Below, piece after piece: positions 1 to 23,673 of a stretch of DNA of 64,000 nt. Below the pieces are notes generated by a model. It saw nothing but the letters and a program-made list of their open reading frames with translations. It was not told the origin of the DNA and did no database searches. The stretch covers positions 186,001 to 250,000 of the forward strand of contig NZ_LT592170.1 in assembly GCF_900088825.1 (NCBI RefSeq), read 5' to 3'. The DNA comes from Thiomonas delicata (GTDB taxonomy: Bacteria; Pseudomonadota; Gammaproteobacteria; Burkholderiales; Burkholderiaceae_C). A program made the translations under genes and the position numbers. Each line of letters starts with the position of its first letter. Position 1 is the first letter of the stretch.

Positions 1-1970
1 CCGGTATTCAGACCCCGACGGTGCGCATCCACAACCGTCCGGCGTACAACTCCGAATGCTTCGGCAACCGTGACATGGGCATTTTCGAGCTGAACAACAG
101 CTACGAGGATGCCGAATTGGCGGACGTCATCTGGTCCATCGGCAACAATCCTTACGAAAACCAGACGAACTACTTCCTCGTGCACTGGCTGCCCAATCTG
201 CAGGGCGGCACGGTGGACAAGAAGAAGAAAATGTTCCCTGGCGAACCGGTCGGTCCTGGCAAATTCATCTTCGTCGACCCGCGTCGCAATCCGTCGATTT
301 CGATTTGTGAGGATCTGGCCAAGGATCAAGTTCTGCACTTGGCGATCAATCCCGGCAGCGATGGCGCCCTGTTCAATGGCCTGCTGACCTACATCGTCGA
401 TCAAGGCTGGATCAATAAGGACTTCATTGCCAACCACACGGAAGGTTTCGAGGCGGCTGTCAAGGCCAACGCCATGTCGCTGGACGAATGCAGTCGCATC
501 ACCGGCGTTCCGGTGGCGCAGATCAAGCAGGCTGCAGAGTGGAGCTACAAACCCAAGGCTCCGGGTAAGCAGCCACGCACCATGCATGCCTTCGAGAAAG
601 GCATCATCTGGGGCAACAACAACTACGTCACTGAACAAGCCATCGGTGCCGTTGTCGTGGCCACGCACAATGTGGGCAGCCGACGTGGGACAGGCTGGGT
701 GCGCATGGGCGGTCACCAGGAAGGTTACACACGGCCCCCATATCCGGAACCCAAGTCCCGCTATCCGGCCGCCGACTTTCCCATTCCGCGCCATGACAAA
801 TTGATCGAGGTTGATACTTACCTCATCAATGGCAAGGGCAAGATGATGACGTTCTGGGCGTGCAACACCTTCCAGACTACCAACAATGCCCAGGCTCTGC
901 GCGAAGCCGTCATTCGCCGCAGTCAGATCGTCAAACAGGCCATGGGCCAGGCACGTGGCGCCACGCCCAAGGAGATGGTGGACGTGATCTACAAGGCGAC
1001 GCAAAAGGGCGGGTTGTTTGTCGGGATGATGGATATCTATCCCACCATGATTGCCGAGGCGGCCCATGTGATGTTTCCGGGCGCTCTGCCGGGAGAAATG
1101 AACCACACCTCGATGAACGGTGAGCGCCGCCTGCGCCTCTCCGAGAAATTCATCGACCCGCCCGGCGAGGCGCTTCCCGACTGCCTGATCGCCGCGCGCA
1201 TCGCCAACACCATTCGCGTGATGTACGAGGCCGAAGGCAATGCCAAGATGGCCAAGCGCTTCGAAGGGTTCGAGTGGACAACCCCAGAAGATGCCTTCAA
1301 TGATGGATTCCGCCAGGTCGGTCGACCGGGCGCGCCCAAAATCGACAGCGAGGGTTACGCCACGGGCTACATGGCCACGTATGCACTGCTGCGCAAAGCT
1401 GGCAACAACGGCGTGCAGATGCCGATCAAGCAGGTTGATGGAGACAAGCTGCTGGGTTCGCCGACGCTTTATCCCGACGACAAGTTCGACACGCCCAATG
1501 GCAAGATCCAGGTCTTTCCAGCGAAGTGGGATGGTTGGCTCAAACAGGCAGCCGAGGTCAAGGCCAAGTACAAATTCTGGATCAACAACGGCCGGTTCAA
1601 CGAAGTCTGGCAGTCTTGGTACAACAACCAATACGACCCCTTCATCATGGACCGTTACCCGATGGCGGTGATCCAGATGAATCCTGCGGATATGGCGACC
1701 CTCGGCGTCAAGCCGACCGATGTGGTCGAAATCTACAACGACTACGGCACCACGATGGCCATGGCCTACCCGGAGCCGACCATCAAGCCCAACCAGTCCT
1801 TCGTCGTCTTCGGCGCTCCCAAAGGTGTCGTGGGTTCCGTGGTGACCACCGCCACAGATGTGCATTTCCTCGAATATCACAAGGGAACCTGGGCCGACAT
1901 TCGCCGCGTCGGCTCGATGCCGGACTGGCAACGCACCGTCTCGACCAAGAGCCGCATGTACGGGGTTTGA
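1..1970 (+). CDS. aioA: Arsenite oxidase large (molybdopterin) subunit AioA, 5' end outside window
   Basis: This is the C-terminal 655 residues of the catalytic subunit of periplasmic arsenite oxidase, which oxidises arsenite to arsenate at a bis-molybdopterin centre. The reading frame is already open at base 3, so about 170 residues are missing on the left, including the cysteines that bind the [3Fe-4S] cluster. Family members are about 830 residues long. The visible part covers the molybdopterin oxidoreductase core and the C-terminal molybdopterin dinucleotide-binding domain (about the last 150 residues, with IYNDYGTT and [12 protein letters not shown]). Two hairpins follow, then a cytochrome c gene that probably encodes its electron acceptor. 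aioB should lie just upstream, outside the window. Identification rests on overall similarity as I recognise it. Confidence 0.95.
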
Positions 1971-2089: not shown

Positions 2090-2428
2090 ATGTCAACCCA
2101 TCAACCGAGAATCACGATGAAAAAGTTCTTTTTGTGCACATCTCTGGCCCTGTTCGCAGCCCAGGCCTGGGCCGCCCCTGACATGCTGGCTCTGGCCAAG
2201 CAGAAGAACTGCCTGGCCTGCCATGCAGTGGACGCCAAGATCGTCGGCCCCGCCTACAAGGCCGTGGCCGAAAAATACGCGGGCAAGCCCGGTGCCGAAC
2301 AGATGCTGGTCAACGCCGTGCTGCACGGCCATGTCGGCACCTGGGGTCAGGTGCCGATGCCGGCCAACACCGATGTCACCCCGGCGCAGGCCAAGCAATT
2401 GGTGGCATGGATCCTGAGCCTGAAATAA
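2090..2428 (+). CDS. Periplasmic monohaem c-type cytochrome (class I, c552-like)
   Basis: Small exported cytochrome, 112 residues from this start. A short hydrophobic signal segment (about residues 12-28, ending AWA) precedes the mature protein. The haem motif CLACH is at 41-45, the axial methionine is Met90 in VPMP, and the C-terminal helix is intact. I chose ATG 2090 because GGGAGGAGG lies 8 bases upstream. ATG 2117 (MKKFF...) gives a more classical signal peptide but a weaker ribosome site. Its position after aioA fits the Cyt1 gene of the Thiomonas aio operon, which would take electrons from arsenite oxidase. A close copy is embedded in the fusion gene at 2937-4142. Confidence 0.85.
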   Translation: MSTHQPRITMKKFFLCTSLALFAAQAWAAPDMLALAKQKNCLACHAVDAKIVGPAYKAVAEKYAGKPGAEQMLVNAVLHGHVGTWGQVPMPANTDVTPAQAKQLVAWILSLK

Positions 2429-2542: not shown

Positions 2543-2899
2543 ATGCACCACGAACTTCCTTTTTCCAGTGGCGCTGACCGTCGCGCACGAGCCACCGGCA
2601 AGCTCCGTAGCACGGACGAGGACGACGTCGCCGCCGTCTTCGAGGCGGCCGCCGAACTGTTCGCCGCGCTGTCATCCCCGATGCGATTGAGCATCGTCTG
2701 CCACCTGCGCGAGCAGGACATGAACGTGCAGCAGATTGCCAACCGGATCGGCAGCAGCCAGCCCAACACGTCCCTGCATTTGCGCCAACTGCACCAGATC
2801 GGCATTGTGGATCGGTCGAGGAGCGGTCAGTCGGTGACGTACCGCATCCGCAACACCTTCGTGGCCGATCTGTGCAAGATCGTTTGCCCAGGCCATTGA
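2543..2899 (+). CDS. aioF: ArsR/SmtB-family regulator, AioF-like
   Basis: A 118-residue winged-helix regulator. The DNA-binding core spans about 35-105 (LFAALSSPMRLSIVCHL, then IGSSQPNTSLHLRQLHQIGIV as the recognition region). Cysteines are Cys53, Cys111 and Cys115; the C-terminal CxxxC pair is a likely arsenic-binding site. In Thiomonas arsenitoxydans the aio operon encodes such a protein, AioF, between two cytochrome genes, and it binds the aio promoter region when loaded with arsenic. The same position here supports the name. It differs from the ArsR of the ars operon at 21901-22272, which carries a CC-x6-C motif. A paralogue lies at 4464-4805. Confidence 0.85.
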   Translation: MHHELPFSSGADRRARATGKLRSTDEDDVAAVFEAAAELFAALSSPMRLSIVCHLREQDMNVQQIANRIGSSQPNTSLHLRQLHQIGIVDRSRSGQSVTYRIRNTFVADLCKIVCPGH

Positions 2900-2936: not shown

Positions 2937-4142
2937 ATGCATACCCCACCAGCCTCGCGCTCCAAACCCACACCCACGCACGAACTGCCGTTCGGGGCGA
3001 CCCTGCGCAAGCTGCTCCTGATCATCCCGGCGAGCTTCGCGCTGCCCGTGATCGTCCTGCTTCTGATCGCTTCCTACCTGTCCAACACAGTGGGACCAAA
3101 CCCGGATTCGTCGCCGATGTCCACCCGCGCCATCGTTCGGCGCATTGCACCAGTGGCACAACTCGTGGTCGCATCCGGCCCTCGAATGGCCGAAAAGTGG
3201 AACGCCGCCTCGCTCTCCGCGGCAGCGCCGACACCGAACGCCCAGGCCAAGACACCGGCCACCGCCCACGCACCTGTGGGCGGCACCAGCGCTTCGGCCA
3301 TGCTGACCCTGGCCCGGCGGAAGAACTGCCTGACCTGCCATACCGCCGATCACAAGGTCGTCGGCCCCGCGTACGAGGCCGTGGCCGAGAAATACGCGGG
3401 CAAACCCGGTGCCGAGCAGATGCTGGTCAATGCGGTGCTGCACGGCCACGTCGGCACCTGGGGCCAGGTGCCGACGCCGGCCGAACCGGGGACCAACTCG
3501 ATCGAGCTGCCCTCGGCATATTTTGACTTTCCTATGTCCAACGCCATGACTCTCGCGGAACCGATCGACTACGCCGAACTCATTTGCGAGCTCGTGCGCA
3601 AACGCCAGCAGACCTCACCCAAGCGGCTGGGCGAACCCGGCCCAGATGCCGGGCAGGTTCGCGAACTCTTCACCGCCGCTGCACAGGCGCCCGACCACGG
3701 TTTGATCCTGCCCTGGCGCTTCGTGCATGTCTCGGACGCCGGGCGCCAGCGGCTCGGCGAGGCGTTCGTGCAAGCCCTGCTCGAACGCGACCCCGACGCC
3801 ACCGCGCAGCAACGCTCCGAGGCACGGGCCAAGGCTGCGCGCGCGCCCTTCCTGGCGCTGGCCATCGCCCGCCCGCACGACGATGCCAGCCCCGAGATCC
3901 CGCCGCGCGAGCGCCTGGTCTCGCTCGGCTGTGCACTGCAAAACATGCTGCTGCTGGCGCACGCCCATGGCTTCGGCGCCGGGCTGGTCAGCGGGCAGGC
4001 GATGGAGTCGAGAGCCTTGCGCGACTTGTTCAGGCTTGCCGACAACGAACAAGCGGTTTGCTTCATCGCTGTCGGCACGGTGGCCAAAGCCAAGACCAGC
4101 CGGGTGCGCCCGTCGCCTGTCGATTTCGTCGAGACGTTGTGA
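2937..4142 (+). CDS. Fusion of membrane-anchored, degenerate cytochrome c with a nitroreductase-family domain
   Basis: One uninterrupted frame of 401 residues. Residues 26-48 are a membrane anchor, 50-115 an Ala/Pro-rich linker, and 116-182 a cytochrome domain nearly identical in DNA to the upstream cytochrome, with haem motif CLTCH at 131-135. Two features expected of that cytochrome are gone: the axial methionine is Thr180 (ACG where the paralogue has ATG) and the C-terminal helix is replaced by an unrelated stretch at 183-199. From about 204 to the end a nitroreductase-type flavin domain follows (APDHGLILPWRFVHV, GFGAGLVSG). In-frame ATGs at 3534 and 3546 could start a stand-alone nitroreductase, but no clear ribosome site precedes them. 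This occupies the Cyt2 position of the Thiomonas aio operon. Whether haem is attached and whether the fusion is translated intact are unknown. Confidence 0.8.
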   Translation: MHTPPASRSKPTPTHELPFGATLRKLLLIIPASFALPVIVLLLIASYLSNTVGPNPDSSPMSTRAIVRRIAPVAQLVVASGPRMAEKWNAASLSAAAPTPNAQAKTPATAHAPVGGTSASAMLTLARRKNCLTCHTADHKVVGPAYEAVAEKYAGKPGAEQMLVNAVLHGHVGTWGQVPTPAEPGTNSIELPSAYFDFPMSNAMTLAEPIDYAELICELVRKRQQTSPKRLGEPGPDAGQVRELFTAAAQAPDHGLILPWRFVHVSDAGRQRLGEAFVQALLERDPDATAQQRSEARAKAARAPFLALAIARPHDDASPEIPPRERLVSLGCALQNMLLLAHAHGFGAGLVSGQAMESRALRDLFRLADNEQAVCFIAVGTVAKAKTSRVRPSPVDFVETL

Positions 4143-4170: not shown

Positions 4171-4467
4171 ATGCAGACATCGCCCCGAAAAACCACCCAC
4201 CAAGTCGTGTATTTCGCCCAGAGTTTTCACCGCGGCGAGCCGGAGCAGCGCAGCATGATGCTGGCCATCGGCTCCCAAGGCTATGTCGAAGCGGCAGCGC
4301 GCGCGCACCGTGATTTGCATCCCGAGGACGGCGTTGCCGTCTATCGGGCACTCATGGACGAGCCCACACCGATGAGCTATCGCCTTGTGGACTACTTCAG
4401 TTCCGAGCTCGGCGAAGCCTGGCATGAGGGTTTCGCCCCGCACTACCAGCATGGATTGCTCGAGTGA
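4171..4467 (+). CDS. Small conserved-looking protein of unknown function in the aio cluster
   Basis: A 98-residue soluble protein that I do not recognise. It starts at ATG 4171 with GGAG six bases upstream, and its stop overlaps the GTG start of the next ArsR-type gene (GTGA). This suggests translational coupling and a role tied to that regulator. It has no signal peptide, membrane segment or cysteines; the sequence is rich in Glu, His and Tyr (PEQRSMMLAIGSQGY, YFSSELGEAWHEGF). Good start signals and tight packing argue that it is a real gene. Confidence 0.65.
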   Translation: MQTSPRKTTHQVVYFAQSFHRGEPEQRSMMLAIGSQGYVEAAARAHRDLHPEDGVAVYRALMDEPTPMSYRLVDYFSSELGEAWHEGFAPHYQHGLLE

Positions 4468-4805
4468 CGCACGCCCCGCAGATTTTTGCCAACACCCTCG
4501 CGACGACCGACCAGGCCCAAGAAGGTGACGCACTGGAGGCGGTGTTCCAGGAGGCCGCCGAACTCTTCGCCGCACTCGCCTGCCCGACGCGGTTGCAGAT
4601 CGTCTGCCAGTTGCGCCACGGCGACCAGACCGTGCATGGACTGGTTGACTGCATCGACAGTTCCCAACCCAATATCTCGGGCCATCTGCGCCTGCTCAGA
4701 CAGGCCGGCATCGTGCGCCGCGAGCGTAGCGGGCGACAGGTCACGTACCGCCTGAGCAGCACACTGGCCGACGCCTTGTGCGCAGCAGTCTGCATCGTCA
4801 ACTGA
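4464..4805 (+). CDS. Second ArsR/SmtB-family regulator, paralogue of AioF
   Basis: 113 residues, GTG start overlapping the stop of the preceding gene. The winged helix covers about 33-100, with recognition region [21 protein letters not shown]. Cysteines are at 40, 48, 63, 106 and 110. The C-terminal CxxxC (106/110) matches Cys111/Cys115 of the AioF-like protein and the rest of the fold aligns well, so this is probably a duplicate. It may bind As(III) or a related metalloid and control the molybdenum-cofactor genes just downstream or the aio promoter; that role is inferred from position only. Confidence 0.8.
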
Positions 4806-7914: not shown

Positions 7915-8807
7915 TGAGCCGACAGCACGAGAGTGAGGGCGTACGCAAGGGTTGCGCCCAATGCCACCAATGCGCAATACGCGCACAGTGCATCTTCAAG
8001 CATTGGCCCCTGGAGGAGCTGAACGCTGTTGCCGAGAATATTGACGACGTGCAATACGGCCCACGGCAAGTACTCTACGAGCCTGGGAAGCGCGGCGACC
8101 ATGTTTACGTGATCCGCACCGATCTCGTCACGCTGGCTTGCATCGAACCCGACGGCCAGCGCCGGATCTCCCGGGTCGCCAAACGCGGGGACGTGATCGG
8201 ACTGGAGAGTCTGGTCACCCAGCCCTTTCTGCATCGGGCTTCGTCCGTCAAAACCGTGCGGGTCTGCCGCATCCCCATCACACGGCTCCAGGACAAGGAC
8301 GCAGGGCGGTGCGATGGGGGTCTGGACATGATGGAGCGTTGGCATCGCGCCCTGCAGCAGGCGGACGACTGGTCCTGCCTCTACGGGGGGCAGCGCCCCG
8401 TTGTGCCCCGGATGGCGCAATTGATCTTGGCGCTGACGGATCCGCCGTGGAGCGAGACGCTGTTGCTGCCCAAGCTGGACGATCTGGCTGCCCTGCTCGG
8501 CGTGGCGATGGAGTCGGCCAGCAGAGCCTTGTCTCAACTCAGGCAGCGCGGTTGGCTTGTGCGGCTGGGGCACGGCCGCTACGCCATCGAACGCGATGCG
8601 CTGGATGCCTATGTGCAGGTCCGAAAGCCGCTTTCGGCCCGGCAGCGCCGCGCGGGTATTGCGTCTGGCGCCAAGAGGCCGCAAGCTGAAGCGGGCTCTA
8701 CTCCGGCCACGCAGGCATCATCCCTGCCCACCGTTCCTCACCGCCGGTCCGGCGGTCAATTTGTCGGCATGGATCATGCACCCGTGCAGAACCGGCATCT
8801 GCCTTGA
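7914..8807 (+). CDS. FNR-type Crp/Fnr regulator with conserved Fe-S cysteines
   Basis: 297 residues from ATG 7914. The N-terminal cluster CAQCHQCAIRAQC gives Cys17, Cys20 and Cys26 in the C-x2-C-x5-C spacing of E. coli FNR. Cys118 in RVCRIPI aligns with FNR Cys122 (VCEIPF). A cyclic-nucleotide-type beta-barrel covers about 40-140. The recognition helix at about 200 has the order E-x-x-S-R (MESASRAL), as in FNR, predicting TTGAT half-sites. The last 55 residues are a low-complexity tail not seen in FNR. An oxygen- or NO-sensing role is inferred. A near-consensus target lies at 14239-14252. It is packed between the Rrf2-like gene and moaD. Confidence 0.85.
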   Translation: MSRQHESEGVRKGCAQCHQCAIRAQCIFKHWPLEELNAVAENIDDVQYGPRQVLYEPGKRGDHVYVIRTDLVTLACIEPDGQRRISRVAKRGDVIGLESLVTQPFLHRASSVKTVRVCRIPITRLQDKDAGRCDGGLDMMERWHRALQQADDWSCLYGGQRPVVPRMAQLILALTDPPWSETLLLPKLDDLAALLGVAMESASRALSQLRQRGWLVRLGHGRYAIERDALDAYVQVRKPLSARQRRAGIASGAKRPQAEAGSTPATQASSLPTVPHRRSGGQFVGMDHAPVQNRHLP

Positions 8808-8829
8808 TTTCCTTATCCTGGAGGTTCCC

Positions 8830-9087
8830 ATGAACATCACGGTTCGATACTTTGCCCATGTGCGCGAGTGCCTCGGCACGGGCCGGGAAGACCATGAACT
8901 GCCGGAGCAGATTCGCACCCTGGGTGAGATGCGCGCCTGGCTGATGACACGCAGTGAGCGCCACGCAGAGGCGCTGGATTCCGCGCGGCCCTTGCGCATG
9001 GCCTGCAACCAGACGATGGGGGATACTCAGACCGAGCTGCAGGCCGGATGCGAAGTGGCATTTTTCCCGCCGGTCACCGGGGGGTGA
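8830..9087 (+). CDS. moaD: Molybdopterin synthase small subunit MoaD
   Basis: 85-residue ubiquitin-fold sulfur carrier of molybdopterin synthase. It starts MNITVRYFAHVREC and ends in PPVTGG, the Gly-Gly tail that is adenylylated and thiocarboxylated. GGAGG (8820-8824) sits five bases before ATG 8830. moaE follows after 4 bases, so the two synthase subunits are made side by side. The activating enzyme MoeB is not in the window. Confidence 0.9.
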   Translation: MNITVRYFAHVRECLGTGREDHELPEQIRTLGEMRAWLMTRSERHAEALDSARPLRMACNQTMGDTQTELQAGCEVAFFPPVTGG

Positions 9088-22563: not shown

Positions 22564-23673
22564 GCCGGCATCAACGAACTTGAATCAAGCCGCATAACGA
22601 ACCGGTCCATGTTCGAAGTATTTGCGAATCCGCTCAGGCTGACGTTGCACGCTGCGCAGGTGGCGTGCGGTGGCCTTGACCAGTTGCAGCTTCGTGCGCG
22701 CCGGGGCCAGAGTCGTCACCGCTTGCTTGATGTCGGCGTTGGCCATCTCGTCGGGGTTGAGTTCGGGGCTGTAGCTGGGCAGGTAGAACACCTCGATCGC
22801 ATCGGCGTGCTCGGCCAGCCAAGCTTTCACGGGCTTGGCGTGATGCACCCGCAGGTTGTCCAGGATCAGGAACAACTTCTTGCTCGCCCTTTTGATCAGC
22901 CGGCGCAGGAAGTCGATCAGGATGTCCGTGTTGAGCGCGCCGTCGAAAATGCGCCAGCGCATCTGCCCCTTGTTGGTCACGGTGGAGATCACCGACAGGC
23001 CGTGGCGCTTGTTGTTGACGCGGATCACCGGCGTTTGCCCCTTGGGCGCGAAGCCGCGACCCCGTACGTCGTCGCTGCGCAGCCCGCTCTCGTCGCCCCA
23101 GTGAATCTCCGCACCTTCGGACTTGGCCTTCGCGGCGATGACCGGGTAGTCCTCCTCGAGCCACTTCTTGACCGCCGCGGGCGACTGCTCGTACGCCTTT
23201 TTCATCGGCTTTTGCGGCGTGAAGCCCCAGCGCGCCAGGTACAGGCCCATCGTGCGCACCGCCAACCGGATGCCAAAGCGCTGCTCGATGAGCTGCGCGA
23301 CCGCCGTGCGGGTCCACAGCGCGTAGGGCATCTTCAACGGGTCAGGCGTCTTGTCGGTGATGAGCTTGCGCACCGTCGCCTCCTGTGCCGCGTCCAGCAG
23401 CCGGCCATCGCCGCTCTTGCGCCCACTGGGTGCGTCGCGCAAGGCCTTCGCGCCCGCCGCTTCGTGGCGCTTGCAGATGTCGAACACACCGGTGCGGCTC
23501 AACCCAGTCTGCGCCGCAATCTCGTCGTAGGTCCGGCCCGCTTTGCGTAGGCGGATGACCTGCACGCGTCTCTCGTGTCGCGCGTCGCGCGACAGCGATC
23601 TCATGTCAGTTGCTTCCATCACACCAACATGATGGCGCATGCGAATACTTCAAGTTAAATACTTCCGAATCAA
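22560..23673 (-). mobile_element. IS630-family insertion sequence
   Basis: The element is 1114 bases. Its ends are imperfect inverted repeats of about 40 bases that share TTGA at the tip, then CGG, AACTTGAA and CGCAT at the same offsets. A TA dinucleotide flanks both ends (22558-22559 and 23674-23675), as expected for the TA target duplication of IS630. It encodes one transposase and looks intact. It sits inside a hicB-like gene. Confidence 0.85.
22585..23640 (-). CDS. IS630-family transposase
   Basis: 351 residues from ATG 23640; ATG 23604 (MRSLSRD) is a possible later start. The N-terminal helix-turn-helix domain (GRTYDEIAAQTGLSRTGVFDICKRH) is followed by a winged-helix region and the DDE catalytic domain, with Asp in HWGDESGL, Asp in LILDNLRVHH and Glu/Asp in YSPELNPDEM. 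The frame is complete and fills the element from end to end, so it may be active. The family inserts at TA. Confidence 0.93.
   Translation of the reverse strand: MRHHVGVMEATDMRSLSRDARHERRVQVIRLRKAGRTYDEIAAQTGLSRTGVFDICKRHEAAGAKALRDAPSGRKSGDGRLLDAAQEATVRKLITDKTPDPLKMPYALWTRTAVAQLIEQRFGIRLAVRTMGLYLARWGFTPQKPMKKAYEQSPAAVKKWLEEDYPVIAAKAKSEGAEIHWGDESGLRSDDVRGRGFAPKGQTPVIRVNNKRHGLSVISTVTNKGQMRWRIFDGALNTDILIDFLRRLIKRASKKLFLILDNLRVHHAKPVKAWLAEHADAIEVFYLPSYSPELNPDEMANADIKQAVTTLAPARTKLQLVKATARHLRSVQRQPERIRKYFEHGPVRYAA

Follow-up and report, generated by a model that had tools for sequence, protein, structure and literature searches.

Does a single reading frame that joins a c-type cytochrome to a nitroreductase encode a new haem–flavin protein, or does it mark the decay of a cytochrome gene that was fused with its neighbour? 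The frame lies in a stretch of 64,000 nt from Thiomonas delicata, which we call the window and to which coordinates refer unless a contig or locus is named. The original prediction, made from the window sequence, had offered both readings. Genomes are given below by handles, of which G000 is the window's own genome.

The fused frame in its operon

The frame lies in an arsenite-oxidation operon, as predicted, with aioA, cytC, and a gene in the place of aioF upstream. The features of the region are as follows.

3..1970, + strand: aioA (arsenite oxidase large subunit), 3' part; frame open at the window edge
2117..2428, + strand: cytC, first monohaem cytochrome c, intact; PF00034 E 4.7e-10; Met in VPMPAN
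2543..2899, + strand: ArsR/SmtB regulator in the place of aioF (orf1); PF01022 E 5.1e-11; taken as aioF from its place and family
2937..4142, + strand: fused frame cyc2::nitR, 401 aa, from the ORF list and Pfam
3012..3068, + strand: membrane anchor LLLIIPASFALPVIVLLLI, residues 26–44; hydropathy maximum 2.9
3327..3341, + strand: haem motif CLTCH, residues 131–135, from the translation
3474..3476, + strand: codon 180, ACG (Thr), at the axial Met site; ATG in G002 and G027
3482..3483, + strand: fusion junction, the end of homology to cytC and intact cyc2
3483..3545, + strand: 63-nt leader, now a linker; full-length match in fusion copies only, among the sequences searched
3546..4142, + strand: nitR, nitroreductase (YdjA type); its own start probably ATG 3546, aligned by eye with the nitR of G393 and G335
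4171..4467, + strand: 98-aa ORF; no family in Pfam, NCBIfam, or PHROG
4464..4805, + strand: second ArsR-type regulator; PF01022 E 2.6e-13

From their sequences, we take the genes after the second ArsR gene to be moaA and moeA, and a minus-strand frame at 22585–23640 presumably encodes an IS630-type transposase. As predicted, a cytochrome and a nitroreductase share one frame behind an anchor: the ORF of 401 codons matched the nitroreductase family PF00881 (E 1.2e-24), and the hydropathy scan detected one strong hydrophobic segment at residues 26–44. The positive residues of the anchor lie N-terminal to its hydrophobic stretch, which would put everything past it in the periplasm. Paralogues in L048 and L049 have an anchor similar to that of the fused frame.

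The available parts of the literature describe for T. arsenitoxydans a cyc2 cotranscribed with aioBA (PMC10820871, citing Slyemi 2013) and AioF in the aioBA operon (PMC7533571), for Acidovorax NO1 a nitR beside the aio genes whose disruption delayed arsenite oxidation (PMC3834237), and for Herminiimonas arsenicoxydans a nitroreductase gene, aoxC, beside the aio genes (PMC2848651). Since nitR/aoxC is known beside aio genes and cyc2 in the T. arsenitoxydans operon, the frame was read as cyc2 joined to nitR. It belongs to the same operon as the T. arsenitoxydans aio cyc2, and its identity with that published gene is deduced from its position following the ArsR/SmtB gene (orf1/aioF), whereas the window frame continues into nitR. 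In NO1 and H. arsenicoxydans the nitroreductase adjoins the operon cytochrome as it does here, but it is described there as a separate gene in the accessible text (PMC3834237, PMC2848651), whereas the window nitR is joined to the frame of an anchored cytochrome.

The cytochrome half had been called almost identical to cytC. The two are homologous, but identity over the shared stretch was only 160/184 nt (87%), and the residue differed at 10 of the 61 shared codons. The homology stops at 3482, directly 3' of the PTPA motif, which is PMPA in cytC, so that the fused frame has neither the final helix nor the stop, as had been predicted. The substitution of Met by Thr180 (ATG to ACG), judged against cytC, was likewise borne out. 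When the fused frame was compared with class I cytochromes c, the CxxCH motif was present as CLTCH, while the axial Met, 45 residues past the His of CxxCH, was replaced in the window copy by Thr180. The C-terminal helix of class I cytochromes packs on the N-terminal helix and is needed for the fold. PF00034 matched residues 126–169 of the fused frame only, at 16.8 bits, which is below the cut-off of 21.3, while the neighbouring cytC scored 41.1 bits. An AlphaFold model of residues 118–225, comprising the truncated cytochrome and the first nitR helix, gave a low pLDDT of 47, and the control, intact cytC, gave only a little more, 59, with both alignments only 7 rows deep. The cyc2 half, without its last helix and in this haplotype without the axial Met, is probably decaying and non-functional.

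The nitroreductase half appears well preserved. We collected 46 nitR loci, 35 of which entered the alignment A2; six cytC rows, which were misaligned onto nitR, were left out. Among these 35 loci and the window (36 rows), none of the 39 near-invariant residues was changed in the window nitR. The closest solved sequences were 3k6h, 7tmf, and YdjA (3bm1). The NCBIfam model NF008088 gave 92 bits against a cut-off of 183, which counts against the YdjA-type assignment; the enzyme is predicted to bind FMN and to use NAD(P)H. The position of nitR in an aio operon, behind aioBA and the operon cytochrome, was found in the window and in its relatives. In its native form nitR most likely starts at 3546, because the G393 nitR opens with ATG ACT CTC GCC GAA, which corresponds to window 3546, and the G335 nitR also aligns there. 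A simple scan of eight starts detected no Shine–Dalgarno sequence at 3546, nor at cytC, aioF, or 2937, and gave a match at the 98-aa ORF alone.

Fused and unfused forms in related genomes

A search for the same two-domain order in relatives had been proposed, and it revealed the fusion in four genomes of two genera, with no further example in the searches of the family, the second genus, and the nitR loci described below. In G000, three copies of the frame, identical in DNA, lie on contigs C4, C5, and C8 (5.4 kb); C8 may be either a further, incomplete copy or a fragment left by the assembly. One copy each was found in three other genomes (G002, G027, and G268). In the genus of the window, aioA was detected in 9 of 28 genomes (E <= 1e-100, window aioA as query) and the full fusion in 3 of the 28; in a second genus, aioA was detected in 4 of 13 genomes and the fusion junction in one, G268. 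The 18 aioA loci of the two genera (14 in the first, including the partial C8, and 4 in the second) comprised six with the fusion junction, in four genomes, one with an intact cyc2, and 11 without a cyc2-anchor match in the fetched stretch. The 401-codon frame was open in five of the six fusion copies, in three genomes.

Beyond these genera, 399 genomes of the family were searched (E <= 1e-30, up to four candidates scored per genome), and the full-length or junction-spanning matches listed belonged to G000, G002, and the split copy of G268; G027 was not among them. At the level of the order, 399 genomes were searched at E <= 1e-55, a threshold that can pick up close copies only. No place in the plasmid and phage collections covered 80% of the query. 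A contig scan with the fusion protein returned 64 stretches that fit a pattern, none of which was confirmed. No CxxCH was found upstream in the nitR frame in the 44 scorable loci of the 46; the other two were L142, where the match starts inside nitR, and L144, where it starts at a contig edge. The same was the case for nine of the nitR rows that reach left of the junction, to residue 183 or lower (G013, G054, G140, G225, G307, G346, G363, G809, and G813), of which G346 has a CxxCH further up, past stops. Two fusion candidates were rejected: G075 C1:1807615 had no cytC or cyc2 match, and in G011 cytC and nitR are separate with TAG between them. No donor of the 63-nt leader was found beyond the fusion copies in the sequences searched. 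Full-text searches for a cytochrome c–nitroreductase fusion in connection with arsenite oxidase, in a collection covering few subscription journals, found no paper.

G027 carries both forms, one locus being fused and the other having separate cyc2 and nitR. Their sequences agree at 99.96% of positions along 4627 bp up to the junction and then diverge. The unfused cyc2 encodes 205 aa, has PMPAN and the last helix, and ends with PMPANTDVTPTQAKDLVTWILGLNKAR followed by TGA; the likely ATG of nitR lies 285 bp further on. The domain of this intact cyc2 matched cytochrome c551 (1dvv and relatives) with E 1.2e-21 and has the Met in the PMP motif, whereas the fused copy ends directly past this motif and the window has Thr in place of the Met. 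An intact cyc2 was seen at this one locus only, and it might conceivably be derived rather than ancestral. At its 3' end it differs from cytC about as much as elsewhere along the gene, which speaks against repair of that end with cytC sequence. Separate neighbouring cytC and nitR genes with a stop between them were also found in G011, G019, G393, G075, and a Hydrogenophaga plasmid. The 98-aa ORF behind nitR was 97 to 100% identical in G002, the fused G027 locus, and G268, and 45% identical in the unfused G027 locus.

The fusion copies themselves differ little. Within 1206 nt, G002 differed from the window at 3 nt, G027 at 7 nt, and G268 at 3 nt and one deleted base. Taken together, the copies show 4 changes that alter an amino acid, 3 silent ones, and a single frameshift, which are too few to test selection; because the differences are so few, the open frame in five of six copies has little power either way. 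Codon 180 is ACG in the three G000 copies and in G268, and ATG in G002 and G027. The Met180 retained in the fused G002 and G027 indicates that its loss was separate from the fusion event and rules out that the two were one event. Since cytC and the intact cyc2 have the Met too, its loss most likely followed the fusion; nor is the loss the peculiarity of one strain. In G268 the deletion of 1 bp falls in codon 216, inside nitR and 3' of 3546 (window-equivalent 3583, L093). The cyc2 frame consequently stops at 255 aa, and the first start in the remaining nitR frame is a GTG, giving 182 residues. This frameshift, lying inside nitR, argues against nitR being needed in G268 as much as it argues against the fusion.

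Origin and possible function of the fused frame

These data favour a single deletion fusion that spread with arsenic islands, after which the cyc2 half is probably non-functional and nitR is most likely expressed from its own start; we give this account a probability of about 75%. The ancestral aio operon would have had an anchored cyc2 followed by a separate nitR. A deletion would have taken the last 23 codons and the stop of cyc2 together with much of the spacer, so that cyc2 ran on in frame into the nitR leader at a point 63 nt 5' of the nitR start at 3546. The fusion would then have spread with arsenic islands through transfer and gene conversion. Arsenite oxidase probably passes its electrons to the intact cytC, and NitR, translated from 3546, most likely stays a soluble cytoplasmic flavoprotein. 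Were the full frame made, the anchor would put NitR on the periplasmic side, away from its usual cofactors, since free FMN and NAD(P)H are not to be expected there. We infer the direction of the event, the internal start, the loss of cytochrome function, the topology, and the route of spread from comparisons of sequences. Of the two original readings, the decaying duplicate fused by deletion thus gained support from the intact cyc2 and separate nitR of G027, the nitR start equivalent to 3546 in G393, the Met retained in two fused genomes, and the frameshift in one copy, while the haem–flavin protein did not.

According to that other reading, the full fusion would be made and would work as a membrane-tethered haem–flavin redox protein, whose truncated haem domain links the respiratory side with the flavin by electron transfer or, with its haem five-coordinate, acts as a ligand sensor. 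The frame is indeed open in five of six copies, CxxCH is kept, the nitR domain is intact, and G000 has two to three copies. However, the cytochrome lacks its last helix, the Met is present in two of the four genomes, the G268 frame is broken, and the nitroreductase would lie on the periplasmic side as judged from the anchor. Moreover, the divergence is too small to show selection, and neither the scorable nitR loci nor the nine further ones had a CxxCH upstream in frame; no other example emerged from the searches. We therefore regard a working haem–flavin protein as very unlikely. The wider proposal, that an anchored protein whose truncated c-type haem domain can become five-coordinate through loss of the Met is made in one piece with a nitroreductase, couples periplasmic arsenite respiration to a flavin reaction, and was spread among Thiomonas-type bacteria by arsenic islands, is scarcely to be expected.

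It is also conceivable, although unlikely, that the fused mRNA is a neutral by-product and that neither half matters in this copy of the operon, other nitroreductase genes being present. The G268 frameshift in nitR itself is consistent with this, as are the second nitR-like genes of G000 (C4:1690907), G002, and G268 and the cytC remnants in other aio operons. On the other hand, the window nitR keeps all 39 near-invariant sites, and the reported effect of nitR disruption in Acidovorax NO1 (available text of PMC3834237) speaks for a role of the gene. An error of sequencing or assembly as the cause of the missing stop has a negligible chance: G000 is a draft genome of 54 contigs, but the 63-nt junction stretch is the same in G002, G027, and G268 except for one silent site. 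The junction in four genomes of two genera rules out both a sequencing error and a deletion confined to a single strain. The original prediction was to fall if related strains had separate intact genes and the frame were a single-strain deletion, or if a sequencing error accounted for the missing stop; of these, only the separate intact genes were found.

The deletion account would mean that the fusion has been caught early, since an unfused form, fused forms with and without the Met, and a frameshifted form are all found among close relatives. G268, which is putatively Thiomonas sp. 3As, has Thr180 and the frameshift, which suggests that the T. arsenitoxydans aio cyc2 as described may be a truncated, Met-less cytochrome. 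If so, this matters for models of how electrons leave arsenite oxidase. The 3As genome was obtained from clone libraries with Phred/Phrap assembly, according to the available part of its description (PMC2829063).

Probable exchange between arsenic islands

Divergence along the operon was uneven. Measured in 300-bp bins, the window differed from G002 and G027 by <=1.7% between 2899 and 4098, and by 6 to 22% between 1699 and 2898, the upstream stretch with cytC and aioF. This mosaic fits repeated exchange between arsenic islands. Arsenic islands are described as duplicated and rearranged, with four aio loci in strain CB3, in the accessible text of PMC4589449.

In G000, the aio block occurs two to three times on C4, C5, and C8 (L043, L044, and L045), with more than 4 kb differing by at most one base, and the flanks of C4 and C5 differ by up to 16%. 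This pattern looks like gene conversion.

Remnants of cytC were seen in aio operons of a second type. The one on C5 of G002 (L081:4220-4640) is broken in several frames, and in G004 (L082, about 8728-9037) cytC is cut near the haem motif and lies directly before nitR. A 4.1-kb contig labelled Bordetella (L104), without cyc2, contains part of aioA followed by cytC, aioF, and nitR, with identities to the window of 95%, 89%, and 67%, respectively.
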